A DNA stretch of 36,194 nt from the IMG/VR virus record IMGVR_UViG_3300045135_000696, positions 1 to 36,194 of that record; one strand, 5' to 3'. The first letter of the stretch is position 1; the number at the start of each line of letters is the position of its first letter. The translations under genes were made by a program, and so were the position numbers. The notes below the pieces were generated by a model. It was given only the letters and a program-made list of their open reading frames with translations, was not told the origin of the DNA and searched no databases. Of the stretch, positions 13,549 to 33,254 are shown piece after piece. The stretch comes from a virus.

Positions 13549-14793
13549 TTAGCTGCCGCCGTCATTTGCAAGGCAGAAACTGACAGCATTTCTGACCGCT
13601 ACGTCGCAGCTTTGCAGGGCTACTACCCGTACCGTTCCGCTAGTGCTGGCGGTGTAGGGATCGACCACGATGTCGAGGCCCCCGAACATGCCGACCAGCA
13701 GGTCTGCGAAGTTGCCGAAGTAGGCATCCCCAGCAGCTGCTTGGTTGGACACGATGGCGCGATAGCCATTGATCGTGCCACCGGGCTCGACCACAAACTG
13801 AGCCGTGTTGGTGGCCTTCTCGGTGGTCTTGAGTGCGCCATACATGGCAGCGCCCATGATGTAGGCCAGATTGCCGAGGAGCGCGTTGTCCTCTGCGACC
13901 TTGGTCTCCATCTCGACCACTTGAGCGAAGGTCGGCACGAGATCAGGAGCGGTTCCGAAATCAACGGTGTTGATGCCGGAGGTGTTCTTGATCCCGGTGG
14001 GCTGACCCGAGGAGCCGGAGCCGGAGAGCGCGCCAAGGTCGATTGCGAGAGCAATGGCCTGTGCGAGATCGTCGCGGATCAGGGCCTCAACGTCGAGGCT
14101 CGACTGGATGAGCAGCTGACGGGTGACGTCCGTGTGAGCACCGAGGGTTTTCGGCGTCATGGACACGGAGCCCACGGTCATCTCGGACTCAGAAGAAGCC
14201 CCACCTTCCGTTGCAATCCACCCAGCGGCAGCTGCTGCGGTCTTCTTGGGGATCTTCACATCGCCGGAGAGGCCGTTGAGCATCCGAGCGCCGGCTTGCA
14301 TGACGGAGCTGCTGTTACGCAGCACGTCGATGAAGTCGCCACCACGGAAGTCATCGGTGAACAGGGCAGCCTCGTCGGCGCTGTTCAGGTCACGCTTCCA
14401 GTTGCGGAGCACTTCGGCCGGGAGCAGGATGCCCTGAGCGGCGCGACCGTACTGGTCGGCAGCTGCGCGGGAGCACTCAAACTCGAACGCAGCGGCTTCT
14501 TGAGCGCGGCGGTCGGTCGGGTTGGCGAGGGCATGGATAGCACGGATGATGCTGAAGCGCTTCACCTCCTGCTTGGTCATGCCGACATCTTGCGCCTCAA
14601 GGGCACGCTCGGAGCCGATCACCTCGAGGAGCTCGCCACGGAACTCTTCGACGCTCTTGCCCTCTGCGATTGCCTTGCGGGCCATCTCGCCTTGGTTGTG
14701 CCGAGCACCGAGCTCGACGATTTGCGCGGCACTGCGCTGTGCGGCTTTGCGGGCTTCCGCCTCGACTGCCGCGATGTCCACTTGATCGGTCAT
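13549..14793 (-). CDS. Internally initiated major capsid protein (414 aa)
   Basis: Alternative product of the fused frame, starting at Met404 (MTDQVDIAAVEAEARKAAQR). The ATG at 14793 is preceded by AAGGAGG five bases upstream (14805-14799), one of the strongest ribosome sites in the window, lying in frame within codons for NPKEVI. A 414-residue protein with an N-terminal helical delta region of about 70 residues fits HK97 gp5-like capsids (about 385 residues with a 102-residue delta domain). This would let the phage make hundreds of capsid subunits and only a few protease fusions. Translation from here is inferred. Confidence 0.7.
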   Translation of the reverse strand: MTDQVDIAAVEAEARKAAQRSAAQIVELGARHNQGEMARKAIAEGKSVEEFRGELLEVIGSERALEAQDVGMTKQEVKRFSIIRAIHALANPTDRRAQEAAAFEFECSRAAADQYGRAAQGILLPAEVLRNWKRDLNSADEAALFTDDFRGGDFIDVLRNSSSVMQAGARMLNGLSGDVKIPKKTAAAAAGWIATEGGASSESEMTVGSVSMTPKTLGAHTDVTRQLLIQSSLDVEALIRDDLAQAIALAIDLGALSGSGSSGQPTGIKNTSGINTVDFGTAPDLVPTFAQVVEMETKVAEDNALLGNLAYIMGAAMYGALKTTEKATNTAQFVVEPGGTINGYRAIVSNQAAAGDAYFGNFADLLVGMFGGLDIVVDPYTASTSGTVRVVALQSCDVAVRNAVSFCLANDGGS

Positions 14794-16002
14794 GATGACC
14801 TCCTTGGGATTGTTGGACTCAACGGTGATTTGAGGAACGTGCCCGCTGCGACCAACGCCGACTGTCACGTCAGCGGGGATCGAAACGATGCTTGCCTCGA
14901 CGGGGCGCCAAGACTTGGCCACATAGGTGTCCTTGTCCTTGCGCTCCAGCTTGTTGATGGCGTATCCAATGGAGACATTCGCACGGATACCGTCCACCAC
15001 ATCATCGAAAACCTCGCGGGCAAGTGGGCCTTTTCCAAAGCGCACCGTCGCACGGAGTCGCCGTGCCGAGCCATCAAGGTCAACCGATTCAATCACGCCA
15101 ATCTGCTGCTCGGGGTCATGGTCGAGCAGAAGCGGGGCGCGGCCGCTGTTAAGGAAAGACAGGTCAATGGCCTCGGCCGAGTGCTCCAGCACCTCGGTGC
15201 CGAAGCTGCGCTCGACGGGCTCCTCGGAGGAGACAGCCATGCGCACCCGGCGCTCGTCAGCATTGACGGCCTGCGGGTCGAGCTCCATGGCCCGATGCAC
15301 CACCTCGGGAGCAGCTTTGCGCTCCTCTTCCATGTTGCCGCGATCTTCAGCCGGCTCGATGGGGTCGATCTTGGTGAGCGTGCTGAAGCGATGGCCCACC
15401 ATGACATCGGAGGGCTGGCCTTCGCTGTCGAAGATGCGAATGAGGGCGGCAGGATCGTCGGGCTCGCCGTTGATCACCACGTCGGTGCCCGGCACCTCGA
15501 TCTGGCCATCGCGCACGATCTCCTCGATCTGCCCGCGTGCCATTCCGCCAGCGCTTTCCCATTCGACAAAATCGCCGATGCTCAGCTCATCAGGTTCTGC
15601 GCGTTCCATGTCACGCTCCTCTTGGTGACTCTCCCCGTCATTATAGCCCCTTTCCGCATCATCAGCGTCATCCATGCGGTCGGAGATGTTATTGGCCCAA
15701 GTCCGGCCGGGGTCGCCACCCCACAAGGCCCACGCTATTCTCCCTGCGGAGGGGTAGCCCTCCTCGCCGGGGCTCCAGCCCTGTCCCTGCTTGTCCACCT
15801 CATGGCGGGCGAAATAGGACACCATGCGCTTCACCGTGTCGAAGCTGAGCTCGCGTCGGTTGCTGATGTCACGAGCTCGGGCGACGCCTACCTCGGTGCC
15901 GCCGCGTCCGTACTCCTCGCGCCACGCAAGGCCGCGCTCGGCCTCTTCGACCATGCCGTCGGTGGGGGTGGTGCTGATTTCCACGCCTTTATACGTCGGC
16001 AT
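13549..16002 (-). CDS. Fused prohead protease and HK97-fold major capsid protein (817 aa)
   Basis: One frame carries several domains. Residues 1-115 are a conserved phage domain (KGVEISTTPTDGMVEEAERG; YPSAGRIAWALWGGDPG). Residues about 132-200 look like a small Tudor-like domain (DFVEWESAGGMARGQIEEI). Residues about 225-390 are an HK97-family prohead serine protease with His in LLLDHD (about 295) and Ser in NVSIGYAI (about 344). From Met404 there is a coiled-coil delta region and the HK97-fold capsid (FRGGDFIDVLRNSS; GWIATEGG; DVTRQLLIQSS). Such fusions occur in other phages. The start has GGAGGT 8 bases upstream and overlaps the portal stop. Two internal ATGs, at Met132 and Met404, have their own good ribosome sites. 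Confidence 0.9.
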   Translation of the reverse strand: MPTYKGVEISTTPTDGMVEEAERGLAWREEYGRGGTEVGVARARDISNRRELSFDTVKRMVSYFARHEVDKQGQGWSPGEEGYPSAGRIAWALWGGDPGRTWANNISDRMDDADDAERGYNDGESHQEERDMERAEPDELSIGDFVEWESAGGMARGQIEEIVRDGQIEVPGTDVVINGEPDDPAALIRIFDSEGQPSDVMVGHRFSTLTKIDPIEPAEDRGNMEEERKAAPEVVHRAMELDPQAVNADERRVRMAVSSEEPVERSFGTEVLEHSAEAIDLSFLNSGRAPLLLDHDPEQQIGVIESVDLDGSARRLRATVRFGKGPLAREVFDDVVDGIRANVSIGYAINKLERKDKDTYVAKSWRPVEASIVSIPADVTVGVGRSGHVPQITVESNNPKEVIMTDQVDIAAVEAEARKAAQRSAAQIVELGARHNQGEMARKAIAEGKSVEEFRGELLEVIGSERALEAQDVGMTKQEVKRFSIIRAIHALANPTDRRAQEAAAFEFECSRAAADQYGRAAQGILLPAEVLRNWKRDLNSADEAALFTDDFRGGDFIDVLRNSSSVMQAGARMLNGLSGDVKIPKKTAAAAAGWIATEGGASSESEMTVGSVSMTPKTLGAHTDVTRQLLIQSSLDVEALIRDDLAQAIALAIDLGALSGSGSSGQPTGIKNTSGINTVDFGTAPDLVPTFAQVVEMETKVAEDNALLGNLAYIMGAAMYGALKTTEKATNTAQFVVEPGGTINGYRAIVSNQAAAGDAYFGNFADLLVGMFGGLDIVVDPYTASTSGTVRVVALQSCDVAVRNAVSFCLANDGGS
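14794..14805 (-). promoter_or_regulatory. Internal ribosome binding site before the capsid domain
   Basis: The minus strand reads AAGGAGG then TCATC then ATG. The spacing of five bases is near optimal and the match to the anti-Shine-Dalgarno is better than for most true starts here. It is placed exactly at the protease/delta domain border. A second internal site, GAGGAG with six bases before ATG 15609, precedes the Tudor-like domain. Confidence 0.7.
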
Positions 16003-17479
16003 CGTCTGCCACCTCCGGCACCACAGGCATCTGCTGCGCCGCGTAGGGCTCCAGCGCGTACTTCACGCCGAACTGAGCCATGAGCTCGCGATCCTTGGCG
16101 ATTTGGGAGAGGAGCTCCTCAACGTCGCGGCCATAGTTTGAGGCCACGTCCTGAAGGGAGAGAATGCCCGCCTTCATGCCGGTGATCGCCGCCGTCATTT
16201 CCTTCTGCGGGTCCACCCAATTCCACGCTCGGCCCCGGAACTCTGCCGCATCGGAGAAGCGCTCAAACTGCCGGACGGGGATGCCAAAGCTGTCCACCTC
16301 CATGGCCGCCTCAAGCCATGCGTCGAAGGCCGGCCGCACAAAGTGGTCAAGCATGAACTGCTGAAGCGTGCGGTAGTAGTCACGCTCCTCAAGGGCGCCC
16401 TGCCGAATGCTGCTGTAGCTGGTCGCCTCAAGGTCATTGGAGAGGGACGTGTAGGACACCCCGAGCCCCGAGGCGATGCCTTTTAGCACTGACGTGTGGA
16501 AGGCGTCGAACTCGTTCGAGGGGTATTGCGGGTCGAAGGTCTTGAAATCGACGCCCTGCGGAAGCTGGTGGAAGGTGCCGGGCTGCGCGTCCATGATCGG
16601 CACATTGCCATCCATGTCATCAGCCACAAAGCCGTCGCCGCTGGGGGACGTGAAAAAGCCCATCTTGCTCGCACCGACTCGGGCGTTGACGATGGCGGCC
16701 TCGCGCAGCGCGCCCAGCTGCTTCATGGCAGACAAGGCCGGCGCCATCCACGGCTCGCCTCGGGTCTGCCCAGCGCGGAGCGGGCGGAAAATGTGGATCA
16801 CCTTGCTCGCCTCAATCCGCCGATGCTTCGGGGAGCGCGTTTGCGTGGTGAAGTCATAATCGCCGGGGTGGCCCGTCAACACATGGTAGGCCACTGGCCG
16901 ACGGAAGCGGTCGAGCTCCACGCCCATGCGAATCTCATTGCCATTGGGCAGGCGCTCCGACTTCTCCTCGTCGATCTGGTCCGGCTCGATGAACTCAAGG
17001 GCAAAGGAATCGTGGAAAGAGGCGCCCCGGTGCTTGATGATGAACACCTCGCCGTCCCTTGCAAGGCCCTCCATGACCATCTTCTGCACGTCATTCCAGC
17101 TCATCTTGCCGTCGACGGTGCAATTGCCGATCCGGCCCCAGCGCCGGAAGGCGGCCTCAACGGCGTTGTTCCCGCTCTGGTCCAGCCGGCCAACGCTATC
17201 CACCGCCTTGACCTGAAGGGTGAAGCCACGATCCCCAATCACGTTGGTCTTGAGGAGCTCAAGGTAGCGCTTCGCGTATTCGTTATTGCGCGCAAGGTCG
17301 CGGGTCCGCGCCCGCATCCTTGAAATTACGGGGTAGAGCTCCGAATCTGCACTGCGCTCGCTGCCGGGGAAGTCAGCAAAAAGCCGCCCAGTGCTGGCGG
17401 CCGCGTAGGATCGCTTGAAGGTGCGGCCCTTGATGGGCTCCGGCTCCGGCTTCTTCTTGAACCAGTCAGCGATCCCCAT
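15989..17479 (-). CDS. B: Portal protein, lambda gpB-like (496 aa)
   Basis: Forms the dodecameric ring at the head vertex for DNA passage. N-terminus MGIADWFKKKPEPEP, then the lambda portal family pattern: SELYPVISRMRARTRDLARN, RYLELLKTNVIGDRGFTLQ, the DGEVFI block, LEFIEPDQID, and VIHIFRPLRAGQTRGEPWMA. The helical wing and the segment LSNDLEATSYSSIRQGALEE are standard for PF05136-type portals. Length is normal. The C-terminus (PYAAQQMPVVPEVADDADV) overlaps the start of the protease-capsid gene by 14 bases. The order connector-portal-protease follows lambda W-B-C. Confidence 0.92.
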   Translation of the reverse strand: MGIADWFKKKPEPEPIKGRTFKRSYAAASTGRLFADFPGSERSADSELYPVISRMRARTRDLARNNEYAKRYLELLKTNVIGDRGFTLQVKAVDSVGRLDQSGNNAVEAAFRRWGRIGNCTVDGKMSWNDVQKMVMEGLARDGEVFIIKHRGASFHDSFALEFIEPDQIDEEKSERLPNGNEIRMGVELDRFRRPVAYHVLTGHPGDYDFTTQTRSPKHRRIEASKVIHIFRPLRAGQTRGEPWMAPALSAMKQLGALREAAIVNARVGASKMGFFTSPSGDGFVADDMDGNVPIMDAQPGTFHQLPQGVDFKTFDPQYPSNEFDAFHTSVLKGIASGLGVSYTSLSNDLEATSYSSIRQGALEERDYYRTLQQFMLDHFVRPAFDAWLEAAMEVDSFGIPVRQFERFSDAAEFRGRAWNWVDPQKEMTAAITGMKAGILSLQDVASNYGRDVEELLSQIAKDRELMAQFGVKYALEPYAAQQMPVVPEVADDADV

Positions 17480-28825: not shown

Positions 28826-29199
28826 GGCTCCTGCGCGACGACAAGCGCTTCTTGGCGCGCCTGCTGGAGCCGTTGGCCCGTGAGGCCAAAGGCCGCGTCA
28901 TGTGGGCCTATAGGGCCGCGTGGGAGGATGGGGAGGCGGAGGAGTCAGCATCGCATCGGAAGGAAAACGCCGGCCGTAGGGCCGCCAATCTGTGGGTCAG
29001 GGAGATGATGATGGAAACACCGGCAGCCGTTTTGCGGTATCGTGAATTGATCGAGCAGGGGCCTCCGCGCTTCTGCCACACCTGCGACCACTTCGACAAA
29101 GAGGAAGGACACTGTGCCCACTTCGACGCGACGCCCCCGGCCGACTTCACGGCGACGGAAAACGCCTGCGACCAGTGGACGATCGAGGTGCCCTTCTGA
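28822..29199 (+). CDS. Zinc-binding phage protein with CxxC...C...C motif (125 aa)
   Basis: GTG start forming GTGA with the helicase stop; an upstream in-frame ATG (28795) would add nine residues inside the helicase gene. The N-terminal half is a charged helix (RRAANLWVREMMMETPAAVL). The C-terminal half has a conserved metal-binding look: FCHTCDHFDKEEGHCAHFDA then PPADFTATENACDQW (pattern CxxC...C...C-x-x-W). Small phage proteins with this motif often sit beside VRR-NUC nucleases. The function is unknown; DNA binding or a nuclease partner is possible. Confidence 0.75.
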   Translation: MRLLRDDKRFLARLLEPLAREAKGRVMWAYRAAWEDGEAEESASHRKENAGRRAANLWVREMMMETPAAVLRYRELIEQGPPRFCHTCDHFDKEEGHCAHFDATPPADFTATENACDQWTIEVPF

Positions 29200-29521
29200 A
29201 CATTGGGAGCAGCGTGAGCTCGTCAAATGGTTCCGCCAGACCTATCCCCACACCCGCATTTTTTCCGTGCCCAACGGTGCGGCCGTGAGCCCTGCCCAAG
29301 CGGCTCGGCTCAAGGTCGAGGGGTTGAGCGCCGGCGTGCCCGATCTGTGCGTGCCGGAATGGTCCCTGTGGATCGAGATGAAGCGGCAGGAGGGTGGCCG
29401 GCTCAGTGCGGCGCAGAAGGGCTGGATTGAGTATTTGGAAGAAGTGGGCCACACCGTGATCGTGGGGAAGGGGTGGGAGGATGCGCGTGGCCAAATCATT
29501 CGCATACTACAACGAGTTTGA
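29114..29521 (+). CDS. VRR-NUC domain nuclease (135 aa)
   Basis: The domain begins EHWEQRELVKWFRQTYPHTR, then FSVPNGAAVSPAQAARLKVE, GLSAGVPDLCVP with the catalytic PD, LWIEMKRQEGGRLSAAQKGW with E-x-K, and ends VIVGKGWEDARGQIIRIL. This is a stand-alone VRR-NUC, a Holliday-junction or flap type nuclease of the PD-(D/E)XK superfamily. There is no ATG close to the domain. The nearest start is GTG 29114 (GAGGAAGGA upstream), giving an Arg-rich 30-residue leader that overlaps the zinc gene by 86 bases. The leader composition looks like a frame shadow, so the true start is uncertain. Confidence 0.8.
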   Translation: MPTSTRRPRPTSRRRKTPATSGRSRCPSEHWEQRELVKWFRQTYPHTRIFSVPNGAAVSPAQAARLKVEGLSAGVPDLCVPEWSLWIEMKRQEGGRLSAAQKGWIEYLEEVGHTVIVGKGWEDARGQIIRILQRV

Positions 29522-30470
29522 CCCATATGCGGCGCAATGGCTCCGCAACCTGATAGCAGCTGGGTACATCGCGCCTGGCGTCGTCGACGAGCGCAGCATC
29601 GAGGAGGTGAGCGCAGATGACCTCAAAGGATTCACGCAGTGCCACTTTTTCGCAGGGATCGGTGGATGGGCTCTCGCAGCTCGACTTGCTGGATGGGCTG
29701 ATGATGAACCCCTCTGGACCGGCTCTTGCCCCTGCCAGCCCTTCAGCGCGGCAGGAAAGCGAGGAGGGACCGAGGACGAGCGCCACCTTTGGCCAGTCTT
29801 TTTCCGCCTCATCGCGCAGTGCCGTCCTCCAGCAGTTGCTGGAGAGCAGGTTGCATCAAAGCTTGGATACCAATGGCTCGCCGGAGTACGCGCTGACTTG
29901 GAGTCGGAAAACTATGCCGTCGGGGCCGTCGATTTGTGCGCTGCGAGCGTCGGCGCGCCTCACATCAGACAGCGAATGTGGTGGGTGGCCGACGCCGGTG
30001 ACATCGGATCACATGGGCTCAAGGCGAGCCACGGCGCACAAAGAGCACTGGACAAGCAATGCTGGGACGACGCTGACCGATGCGGCTTGGTATGCAACGG
30101 GATGGCCGACGCCTCGAACGGTGGACGCGCACGGCCGGAGCCTGAACGATGGGAAGCGCGGAGCCAGTCTGATCGAGGCGGCCGCGGGCTGGGCAACGCC
30201 GACGACGCGGGACCACAAGGACACGGGCGACTTGGGCGGCTCAATGGTTCGCAAGGACGGCAAGACACGCTTGGACGCTCTGGGCCGCCAAGCGTGGATA
30301 GCTGGCAAGGAGTCCTCATCCCTTGCGCCGACGGAAAAGCGCGGCGCATTGAACCCAGCATTGAGCCGCTGGCTCATGGGATACCCAGCCGAGTGGGACG
30401 CCTGCGCGCCTACGGCAATGCCATCGTCCCGCAAGTCGCGGCCGAAGTCTTGAAGGCGTGGAGGTTCTAA
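29481..30470 (+). CDS. dcm: C5-cytosine DNA methyltransferase (329 aa)
   Basis: Phage DNA cytosine methylase. Motif I HFFAGIGGW (55-63), IV GSCPCQPFSAAGKRGG with catalytic Cys85, VI AVAGEQV (118-124, EQV for the usual ENV), VIII IRQRMWW (162-168), X YGNAIVPQVA (311-320). The N-terminus (YYNEFDPYAAQWLRNLIAAG) is typical of phage Dcm proteins. The region from about 170 to 290, target recognition, is rich in Gly/Asp/Arg and repeats ADA/NADDAG-type units. It probably protects phage DNA or marks it; the target cannot be read from sequence. It overlaps the nuclease gene by 41 bases and almost the whole length also codes in the +1 frame. Confidence 0.88.
   Translation: MRVAKSFAYYNEFDPYAAQWLRNLIAAGYIAPGVVDERSIEEVSADDLKGFTQCHFFAGIGGWALAARLAGWADDEPLWTGSCPCQPFSAAGKRGGTEDERHLWPVFFRLIAQCRPPAVAGEQVASKLGYQWLAGVRADLESENYAVGAVDLCAASVGAPHIRQRMWWVADAGDIGSHGLKASHGAQRALDKQCWDDADRCGLVCNGMADASNGGRARPEPERWEARSQSDRGGRGLGNADDAGPQGHGRLGRLNGSQGRQDTLGRSGPPSVDSWQGVLIPCADGKARRIEPSIEPLAHGIPSRVGRLRAYGNAIVPQVAAEVLKAWRF
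29617..30453 (+). CDS. Overprinted ORF within dcm, +1 frame (278 aa)
   Basis: An open frame of 278 codons inside the methyltransferase gene, shifted by +1. It has a strong ribosome site of its own: GAGGAGGTGA (29601-29610) nine bases before the ATG. The protein has structure: Ser/Pro-rich N-terminus, ALTWSRKTMPSGPS, three GW(P/A)TPxTxD units (GWPTPVTSD, GWPTPRTVD, GWATPTTRD), LDALGRQAW, and LNPALSRWLMGYPAEWDACA with PTAMPSSRKSR. To my recollection, proteins with WPTPTxxD and LNPxxxxWLMGxPxxW motifs occur widely in phages next to or within cytosine methylase genes, so it is probably expressed. Function unknown. Confidence 0.7.
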   Translation: MTSKDSRSATFSQGSVDGLSQLDLLDGLMMNPSGPALAPASPSARQESEEGPRTSATFGQSFSASSRSAVLQQLLESRLHQSLDTNGSPEYALTWSRKTMPSGPSICALRASARLTSDSECGGWPTPVTSDHMGSRRATAHKEHWTSNAGTTLTDAAWYATGWPTPRTVDAHGRSLNDGKRGASLIEAAAGWATPTTRDHKDTGDLGGSMVRKDGKTRLDALGRQAWIAGKESSSLAPTEKRGALNPALSRWLMGYPAEWDACAPTAMPSSRKSRPKS

Positions 30471-31613: not shown

Positions 31614-31849
31614 GAGTGCGCTGCCTTATAGCGATCCCGAGGCCGGTAGGCGCGCCCCACGATGCTGTTGAGTGCTCGGTTGAGGTCGGCGTCCGTCTTG
31701 ATGTCGAACACGTCCCCGACGCCTTCTGCGATGATCCGGTGCGCGTGAGGCCCATGGCCCGGCATATGGAAGATTTGCGCCCCCTGCCGCTCGGCCACGC
31801 GCTTGAGGCTGTCCTTGATGGTCGGGGCGTAGGTGTTATTGGTGATCAT
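31610..31849 (-). CDS. Uncharacterised 79-aa protein
   Basis: ATG 31849 overlaps the phosphoesterase stop (ATGA) and has GAGAGGA six bases upstream. Sequence MITNNTYAPTIKDSLKRVAE, RQGAQIFHMPGHGPHAHRII, then FDIKTDADLNRALNSIVGRA. The His/Gly-rich patch (HMPGHGPHAHR) could bind metal. No known family. Coupled to the metallophosphoesterase. Confidence 0.6.
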   Translation of the reverse strand: MITNNTYAPTIKDSLKRVAERQGAQIFHMPGHGPHAHRIIAEGVGDVFDIKTDADLNRALNSIVGRAYRPRDRYKAAHS

Positions 31850-33039
31850 GCTGCGTCCTCTCCAATCATTTCCGGGGTGATGATGACACGGCCGCACTCG
31901 CCGTGCTTCTTGTGATAGGTGATGACCTGCGCTTCGCGGCCGGACATATAGCCTCCCCTCGATGCGTAGGCGTCCGAGGCCGCGAGCGTCCGATGCTGCG
32001 TGATCACCATGAGGTTGCCCTCGACTTCATGGCGGTGATGGAAGTGCCCCATGTGGGCGAAGCTGTGCCGCGTCCGCCCGAACACCTCTCGAAACTTGGC
32101 CACAAAAACATCGTCGATGGCCGTGATCTTGCGTTTGTGGCCATGGTGGAAAAACAGACTCGTGTCGCCCCACTCGAAGCAATAGTAGGGGTCCGGCGAC
32201 TGGTCCACCGTGACGCGGGGCTCGTCCTCATAAAGCGCCGCCAGCCATTCGCGCATCCAAATCGAGCTCACGGGGTTGTGGTTGCCCTCAGCCTCGATGA
32301 GGTGCACCCATGGGTACTTATCCAGCATCATCTGCATGATCTGGCGCCGCACTCGTATCCAGAGCCGGACGATGCGGGAGAAGCGCGTGTCGGCATCGAG
32401 GAGGTGCTTAGAAGCCGGCGTCAGCGGGTCCATGCCGTCGAAATGCAGGTCGTCGCCGAGGAAGCAGAGGATCGCCCCAGCCGCTTTGGGCGCCTGCTCA
32501 ATGGCTCGCTCAAACCAGCCCACCAGCAAGCGCTCGGCAATGGCGGTGTCCCAATCGTCGCCCCGCGTCTCCTCGCCCCATGCCAGCATCCCAAAGTGGA
32601 AGTCGGTGATGACGTGGAGATTGACGAGCTCGGGATCGGTCGGCTTCGGCTTCGACTTGTTCCGAGGCTCGCGGGGTATCTCCTCCTTGCACGCCTCGAT
32701 GAAGTCGAGGGCGATCTGGCGGAGCGCCTCCTGATCGGTGGCGGTCTTGACCCATTGCAGCTTGGGCTGCCCGTCGTCGCCGTAGAGCGTCGACACGCCC
32801 TTGACGGCGAAGGGGGTGGTGGTGGGGTGCCTCATGTCCGCCTCGGGCGCGTAGCCCATCTTGGCGGCTCTCAGGCGTACACGCTCGACGGCCTGCCGGC
32901 CGTTGTTCCGATGCTCGCCAAGGGCCTTCGCTGCCGCGTGCATCGAGCCATGCTCCAGCACGGCGCTGATCCATTTGCGCTCGGTGGAGCTCACGGCGTA
33001 ACTGAGGAGCTCGGGGTCGACCTTCATGGGTGCAGACAT
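31846..33039 (-). CDS. Calcineurin-like metallophosphoesterase with N-terminal HTH (397 aa)
   Basis: Two parts. Residues about 15-65 (STERKWISAVLEHGSMHAAA, KALGEHRNNGRQAVERVRLR) look like a helix-turn-helix. From about 135 there is a calcineurin-like phosphoesterase with its metal motifs: DFHFG (146-150), GDD (195-197), GNHN (252-255), FFHHGH (296-301) and GHFHH (331-335). Such phage enzymes may cleave phosphodiesters in nucleotides or DNA; the substrate is unknown. I choose ATG 33039 (TAATG with upstream stop, GAGGTG eight bases before). Odd place: inside the lysis/late operon, between the spanin-like genes and small proteins. Confidence 0.85.
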   Translation of the reverse strand: MSAPMKVDPELLSYAVSSTERKWISAVLEHGSMHAAAKALGEHRNNGRQAVERVRLRAAKMGYAPEADMRHPTTTPFAVKGVSTLYGDDGQPKLQWVKTATDQEALRQIALDFIEACKEEIPREPRNKSKPKPTDPELVNLHVITDFHFGMLAWGEETRGDDWDTAIAERLLVGWFERAIEQAPKAAGAILCFLGDDLHFDGMDPLTPASKHLLDADTRFSRIVRLWIRVRRQIMQMMLDKYPWVHLIEAEGNHNPVSSIWMREWLAALYEDEPRVTVDQSPDPYYCFEWGDTSLFFHHGHKRKITAIDDVFVAKFREVFGRTRHSFAHMGHFHHRHEVEGNLMVITQHRTLAASDAYASRGGYMSGREAQVITYHKKHGECGRVIITPEMIGEDAA

Positions 33040-33254
33040 TAGCAATGCACCTCGATGCCACACATGGCCTCAAAGGCGGCGTTGTGGCCGATGATCTGCT
33101 TGATGGTATCTTCGGTGTCGAGCCTGCTTGCGCAGATTGGCTCGAACACGGTGCAAGCGGGATCAGTCCCTAAGGGAGCGCTCGCGCACCCCGTCAGGAT
33201 CGTCACCGCCGTCAGTATTGCGGCTTGCTTCGCGATTTGCTTTGCGACGCGCAT
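33039..33254 (-). CDS. Rz1-like outer-membrane lipoprotein, o-spanin candidate (71 aa)
   Basis: N-terminal signal sequence with lipobox ILTGC (Cys23), so a lipoprotein. The mature part PACTVFEPICASRLDTEDTI, KQIIGHNAAFEAMCG fits the phage Rz1-like group with CxxFxPI...DT..TI..HN.....C. The o-spanin anchors in the outer membrane and, with an inner-membrane partner, fuses the envelopes at lysis. It overlaps the upstream membrane gene by 92 bases in another frame, reminiscent of Rz/Rz1 nesting. Confidence 0.7.
   Translation of the reverse strand: MRVAKQIAKQAAILTAVTILTGCASAPLGTDPACTVFEPICASRLDTEDTIKQIIGHNAAFEAMCGIEVHC

Follow-up and report, generated by a model that had tools for sequence, protein, structure and literature searches.

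A locus in a viral genome, IMG/VR record IMGVR_UViG_3300045135_000696, very probably encodes one two-subunit C5-cytosine methyltransferase of the M.EcoHK31I kind from two overlapping reading frames. The longer frame, alpha (dcm), has the motifs of a catalytic subunit, and a gene nested within it in the +1 frame, beta, would provide the recognition region together with motif IX. We refer to the whole analyzed stretch of 36,194 bases as the window; tail, head and replication genes are present in it, and the features of the locus are collected in Table 1.

In profile searches, alpha matches PF00145 (E 1.1e-12) and phrog_363 (E 9e-78), whereas the match of beta is to phrog_1008 (E 3.6e-28), a phage family labeled DNA methyltransferase, with no match for beta among Pfam, NCBIfam and PDB profiles. 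The beta frame contains three GW(P/A)TPxTxD units and LNPALSRWLMGYPAEWD, and its C terminus overlies alpha motif X. Coordinates, frames and motifs of both open reading frames proved to be as a first-pass annotation of this DNA had described them. The locus follows helicase (DEAD/SNF2-type) and VRR-NUC nuclease genes, and the order VRR-NUC, dcm, SNF2 helicase is also found in Escherichia coli E62 (L278). Elsewhere in the window, the 817-codon major head gene (13549-16002, minus strand) faces an open frame of 823 codons on the other strand (13612-16083, plus strand), and long antisense frames also stand opposite 31846-33063; these antisense frames are probably an effect of GC content.

In the model that we propose, alpha would supply the catalytic domain, with SAM binding, the catalytic Cys and motifs I to VIII, and motif X would close this domain, the segment between VIII and X being merely a disordered spacer that is kept open. 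Beta, with a ribosome site of its own, would be translated independently in the +1 frame, would supply the WPTP target-recognition region and motif IX as a folded recognition domain, and would dock on alpha in trans, at the place of the small domain of M.HhaI. The predicted heterodimer would have methyltransferase activity at a target site read by beta, and neither chain would methylate alone.

Table 1. Genes and sequence features of the alpha/beta locus, numbered along the window
Feature	Positions	Strand	Remarks or basis
VRR-NUC nuclease gene, directly upstream, overlapping the start of alpha	29114-29521	+	PF08774, E 6.2e-6
Alpha (dcm), predicted C5-cytosine methyltransferase catalytic subunit	29481-30470	+	329 aa; motifs I, IV, VI, VIII and X; without motif IX
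GAGGAGGTGA, Shine-Dalgarno-like site before the beta ATG (29617)	29601-29610	+	Sequence
Beta, putative recognition region and motif IX subunit, +1 frame within alpha	29617-30453	+	278 aa
Beta N-terminal extension	29617-29784	+	Unconstrained in the beta frame; fourfold-degenerate sites, AlphaFold2
Alpha motif I, HFFAGIGG	29643-29666	+	Alignment
Alpha motif IV with catalytic Cys, PCQPFS	29730-29747	+	Invariant in alignment
Stretch constrained in both frames, where alpha motifs VI-VIII overlie a helix/strand segment of beta (residues about 57-119)	29785-29975	+	
Alpha motif VI, GEQV	29841-29852	+	Invariant in alignment
Alpha motif VIII, APHIRQR	29955-29975	+	Present in 154/160 loci
Putative recognition region in the beta frame; apparently an unstructured spacer in alpha that must stay open	29976-30342	+	dN/dS, stops, pLDDT
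Putative beta recognition unit 1, GWPTPVTSD	29983-30009	+	Sequence motif
Putative beta recognition unit 2, GWPTPRTVD	30100-30126	+	Sequence motif
Putative beta recognition unit 3, GWATPTTRD	30187-30213	+	Sequence motif
Putative beta motif IX, GALNPALSRWLMGYPAEWD	30343-30399	+	Strict pattern; position before X as in single-chain homologues
Alpha motif X, AYGNAIVPQ	30408-30434	+	Pattern in 147/160 alpha, 0/160 beta

Motifs divided between the two frames

Motifs were counted over 160 loci, 80 of them viral and selected by alpha and 80 from bacterial genomes and selected by beta. For the viral set, contigs were scanned with an alpha profile and loci were chosen solely by the peptide patterns of motifs I and IV. 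The bacterial set came from scanning genomes with a beta profile, and Pseudomonadota account for most of its loci, Planctomycetota, Verrucomicrobia, Acidobacteria and others for one case each. Motifs IV, VI, VIII and X are each present in alpha in 147 to 157 of the 160 loci, and a narrow pattern for motif I is matched in 128. By pattern search, motif IX was found in alpha at 0/160 loci and motif X in beta at 0/160. The strict pattern of motif IX is present in 142 of the 160 beta frames, with visible variants in the other 18. The motifs that characterize a C5-cytosine methyltransferase (PF00145), namely, I, IV (PCQ), VI (ENV/EQV), VIII and X in one fold, are thus all in alpha, and motif IX and the candidate recognition domain expected between VIII and X are found solely in the +1 frame.

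In the window, motif IX of beta reads LNPALSRWLMGYPAEW, which we take to have the motif IX form (L.P......MG.P) seen in M.HhaI, and the WPTP target-recognition region lies in beta as well. This putative assignment draws on pattern, position and relatives, matches to Pfam or PDB profiles being below significance.

Predicted structures point to the same division. The catalytic domain of alpha is mostly above pLDDT 80-90 in the AlphaFold2 model, and Foldseek aligns some 200 columns of it with M.HhaI (E 4.8e-9) and M.HaeIII; residues 176-273 are mostly below 50, with values of 32-48 in the recognition stretch. The first-pass annotation had presumed that the repeated ADA/NADD units of this stretch formed the target-recognition region of the dcm frame, a placement that fails on both the low pLDDT and neutral evolution in the alpha frame (dN/dS about 1). 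The alpha repeats would instead appear to be a shadow of beta rather than a recognition domain. Beta modelled alone gives a poor structure (mean pLDDT 59.6), in which the confident parts are residues 66-111 (73-84 over most of them) and the motif IX helix (240-260), and residues 1-60 are coil (52-57). Such a model is as expected of a chain that would fold on its partner, which we regard as supportive but not as proof.

These observations bear on the possibility that alpha is a working methyltransferase by itself and that beta merely tunes its specificity or stability. All catalytic motifs are present in alpha, annotators list alpha singly as a cytosine methyltransferase, and the predicted recognition domain of M.EcoHK31I was placed in its large subunit (PMC3404938). 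Nevertheless, an alpha that works alone is improbable, as it would be without motif IX, and a stretch between VIII and X that is both neutral and predicted to be disordered argues that there is no conserved recognition domain in this chain.

Constraint along the two frames

Constraint swaps from one frame to the other along the locus. Among 18 close pairs, differences upstream of beta are concentrated at the third codon position of alpha (0.28 versus 0.07 and 0.04 at the other two), and those in the stretch between VIII and X fall on alpha position 1, which is position 3 of beta (0.22 versus 0.11 and 0.12), with a dN/dS of 1.06 for alpha and 0.30 for beta. A finer map of dN/dS was drawn from 66 pairs, many of which share sequences, and its values are descriptive: constraint comes from alpha alone up to about motif IV; motifs VI-VIII are constrained in both frames (alpha 0.42, beta 0.66), and synonymous differences in alpha, about 0.45 before this stretch, drop to 0.15; the recognition region, taken by thirds, gives 0.29-0.59 for beta and 0.98-1.31 for alpha; and the sequence from motif X onward is driven by alpha, whose wobble comes back after X.

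Fourfold-degenerate sites of alpha change at a rate of.59-.66 up to about residue 89, after which the rate falls gradually, with values of.23-.34 in several bins from residue 111 on. Strong constraint by this measure begins near alpha residue 111, or about beta residue 66. Constraint in the beta frame is absent over the first ~50-65 codons, and the conserved part of beta starts near residue 57-66. The reduced synonymous variation that the first-pass annotation had expected of the dcm frame is therefore seen, alpha synonymous sites being strongly constrained from about motif VI on. Its picture of dual coding applies over motifs VI-VIII and near the junction of motifs IX and X but not to the full length, along which the frames alternate.

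Although its residues are neutral in the recognition region, the alpha frame is kept open there: three sets of loci hold 0, 1 and 3 alpha-frame stops where 210, 231 and 146 are expected, the expectations being computed with beta codons free to vary synonymously. An alpha frame that is open through this region implies that frame 0 is read through to motif X. Alpha would then be translated through a stretch of indifferent residues, in keeping with a spacer on the way to motif X and contrary to frameshifting.

The frameshifting in question would make a single-chain enzyme by programmed shifts, the first to +1 once motif VIII has been read and the second a return ahead of motif X. The parts lying in alternate frames do give a complete canonical motif order, and frame-changing indels are indeed seen between split and fused relatives (L189/L190). 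A single chain of this origin is nonetheless very unlikely, disfavored by the depletion of stops in the alpha frame, which would be needless if ribosomes left that frame. In addition, about 55 codons over motifs VI-VIII are constrained in both frames, far beyond a slippery site; beta start sites are enriched, as described below; and two shifts in opposite directions would be required.

Relatives with other layouts

Relatives with other layouts were found with mycobacteriophage Arturo gp75 and profile A3. Staggered pairs make up 61 of these 80 relatives, with an alpha that ends after motif VIII and a second gene, in the +1 frame, that holds LPTP units, IX and X. Another 15-16 are single open reading frames with the order I-VIII, LPTP units, L.P.F.EWM.GWP.GW and GNGVVPQQ in one chain, clean examples being L295, L299, L302, L305, L306 and L308. 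Single-chain and staggered-split homologues thus contain the same parts, in the same order, as alpha and beta combined, and hhalign aligns nested beta through motif IX with the second (TRD-IX-X) subunit of staggered relatives (probability 97.3, E 2.3e-11). In the mycobacteriophages, Arturo (gp76/gp75, L002 1592-2687) and also L280-L294, the neighboring genes are both called DNA methyltransferase. Such neighbors are two halves of one split C5 methyltransferase, and their open frames overlap by about 190 bases.

Two viral contigs differ at the frame junction (L189 2300-2800 and L190 2100-2900); their DNA is 89% identical, and a difference of one base decides whether the alpha and beta frames are joined or separate. 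L190 was considered as a single-chain homologue and dropped, since a one-base deletion relative to L189 joins its frames and its motif X is broken. Either misassembly or decay of the copy may explain L190.

The homology to unsplit enzymes also bears on whether beta is an independent protein (a regulator, an anti-restriction factor or a DNA mimic) overprinted on dcm and not part of the enzyme. Beta does have its own start and its own family (phrog_1008), and it has no Pfam domain. We consider independence highly improbable, however, because motif IX is never in alpha and is supplied by beta, if at times as a visible variant; because single-chain relatives contain the beta module in cis, flanked by VIII and X; and because no beta without an overlapping alpha occurs among the 80 genome loci. 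A companion overprinted de novo is likewise disfavored by the homology of beta with the in-cis recognition/IX modules. The first-pass annotation had proposed a partner of the methylase, a regulator or an anti-restriction companion; the partner is favored over the other two, as the recognition region and the motif IX that alpha lacks both appear to be in beta.

A branch with 100/100 support in the catalytic-region tree separates the nested loci from the split and single forms, which are intermingled. A single origin of the nested family is suggested by this topology; the tree is unrooted, and we infer a single-chain ancestor because canonical C5 methyltransferases are single chains. It is moderately probable that a large phage clade of single origin has its recognition region solely in the nested +1 gene, that this gene arose by two compensating frame changes in a single-chain ancestor and that the original frame has become a neutral spacer. 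In that case, the large subunit of M.EcoHK31I would be the wrong place for its recognition domain, contrary to what has been published.

Conservation and start sites of the +1 frame

The length of the +1 frame is by itself weak evidence for beta, and conservation is decisive. The frame stays open by chance with a P of about 0.003 by synonymous-codon permutation of alpha and 0.007 under phage codon usage, and chance also gives the longest gene of the window a +1 run of 292 codons. The +1 frame matches beta at 80/80 alpha-selected viral loci, which are the best 80 of at least 581 matches and may favor the nested form, and none of them is a dcm homologue that lacks the frame. At the 67 viral loci in which VIII and X could be anchored, the +1 frame has 2 stops between these motifs against 99 expected, and the +2 frame has 486 against 434 expected. 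From the other side, alpha overlaps beta in the same frame relation at 80/80 beta-selected bacterial-genome loci, which answers for this set whether beta homologues are always overlapped by dcm. The long-lived coding of two proteins that had been suggested from the window is conserved at 160/160 loci.

Start signals agree with these counts. A +1 ATG or GTG with a Shine-Dalgarno match of at least 5 bases is present at 52% of 197 loci versus 9.8% after synonymous permutation, an enrichment of about fivefold. The starts are clustered 26-56 bases upstream of motif I, their exact position is not conserved, and the N-terminal residues made from the start are not conserved as protein. The ribosome site proposed for beta in the first-pass annotation, GAGGAGGTGA ahead of the ATG, is confirmed in place and is among the strongest.

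That the +1 frame is an untranslated by-product of the alpha sequence and GC-rich codon use, for which the P values from a single genome and the 292-codon run leave some room, has a negligible probability given the stop depletion (absent from the +2 frame), a beta dN/dS of 0.30 where that of alpha is 1.06 and the enrichment of beta starts, and a chance frame is refuted by the stop and codon-position data. The comparison of homologous loci indicates instead that beta is a real conserved gene inside alpha and that the locus represents an old, functional dual coding of what appears to be one enzyme.

At one locus (L032 2332-3522), a single in-frame stop breaks alpha and beta is intact; this could be a sequencing error, suppression or a decaying copy.

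Possible role and annotation

No type II restriction gene was found among the window neighbors scanned, and the locus does not have the makeup of a restriction-modification system. Because no restriction gene was found beside it, the most likely role is orphan self-methylation, by which phage DNA would be protected from host restriction.

Most of the records that we looked at annotate one frame only, which in the RefSeq and most of the GenBank records among them is alpha (E. coli E62, L278 350-2126; L362; L363); both frames are annotated in K1ind2 (L001) and PhiXhv-28 (L361). The label "Mte8-like" on beta of phage K1ind2 may refer to a database name of M.EcoHK31I. With beta left out, half of the proposed enzyme is missing from most records. 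Cloning just the annotated dcm from such phages may accordingly yield an inactive enzyme, and target-site predictions made from the dcm frame would use meaningless sequence. More generally, a domain appears to have moved into another frame of its own gene and to have been kept across phages and prophages of several bacterial phyla, which offers hundreds of natural cases for measuring how constraint is shared between two frames. The phage family is an old one with many members, for the most part unannotated, and it is under-described in both extent and anatomy.

Comparison with known systems

According to Lee, Kam and Shaw, who are said to have reported it in 1995, the small subunit of M.EcoHK31I is encoded within the gene of the large subunit, in another frame, and the window locus has this type of nesting. 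M.AquI and M.EcoHK31I have been described as exceptional C5-methyltransferases made of two polypeptides (PMC3404938). The arrangement, which the first-pass annotation called little described, is not new in kind (cf. M.EcoHK31I, PMC3404938). The large subunit of that enzyme holds motifs I-VIII, X and the predicted recognition domain, and the small subunit holds motif IX alone (PMC3404938). Compared by description, M.EcoHK31I (YGGCCR, E. coli) resembles the window locus in that alpha has I-VIII and X and beta has IX. It differs in being part of a restriction-modification system, whereas the window locus is phage-borne with no restriction gene found adjoining it; when plasmids and E. coli were searched for an M.EcoHK31I-like copy linked to restriction, the cases opened were pseudogenes and prophage-type loci. 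A second difference is the recognition domain, published as lying in the large subunit but here constrained in beta and neutral in alpha; as its placing in M.EcoHK31I was predicted and does not define this kind of enzyme, this may be a correction of the published prediction rather than a difference.

M.AquI (CYCGRG) is likewise a C5-methyltransferase of two polypeptides, with its split in the variable region (PMC3404938). Its small subunit holds IX and X, whereas X stays in alpha in the window, and none of the 160 beta frames contains it. The topology of M.AquI is matched instead by the staggered-split phage relatives (61/80; Arturo gp76/gp75). M.HhaI shares the catalytic fold of alpha, and the same motif order once both frames are combined, but is one chain from one frame and is monomeric. 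In the PHROG library, phrog_363 and phrog_1008, which match alpha and beta, respectively, are both called DNA methyltransferase, and the library is silent on their nested partnership; no description of the phage family as nested pairs was found in the literature searched. The principle of a subunit gene nested in another frame is already known from one bacterial enzyme, and what is new is the extent of the phage family, its probable single origin and the placing of the putative recognition region in beta.
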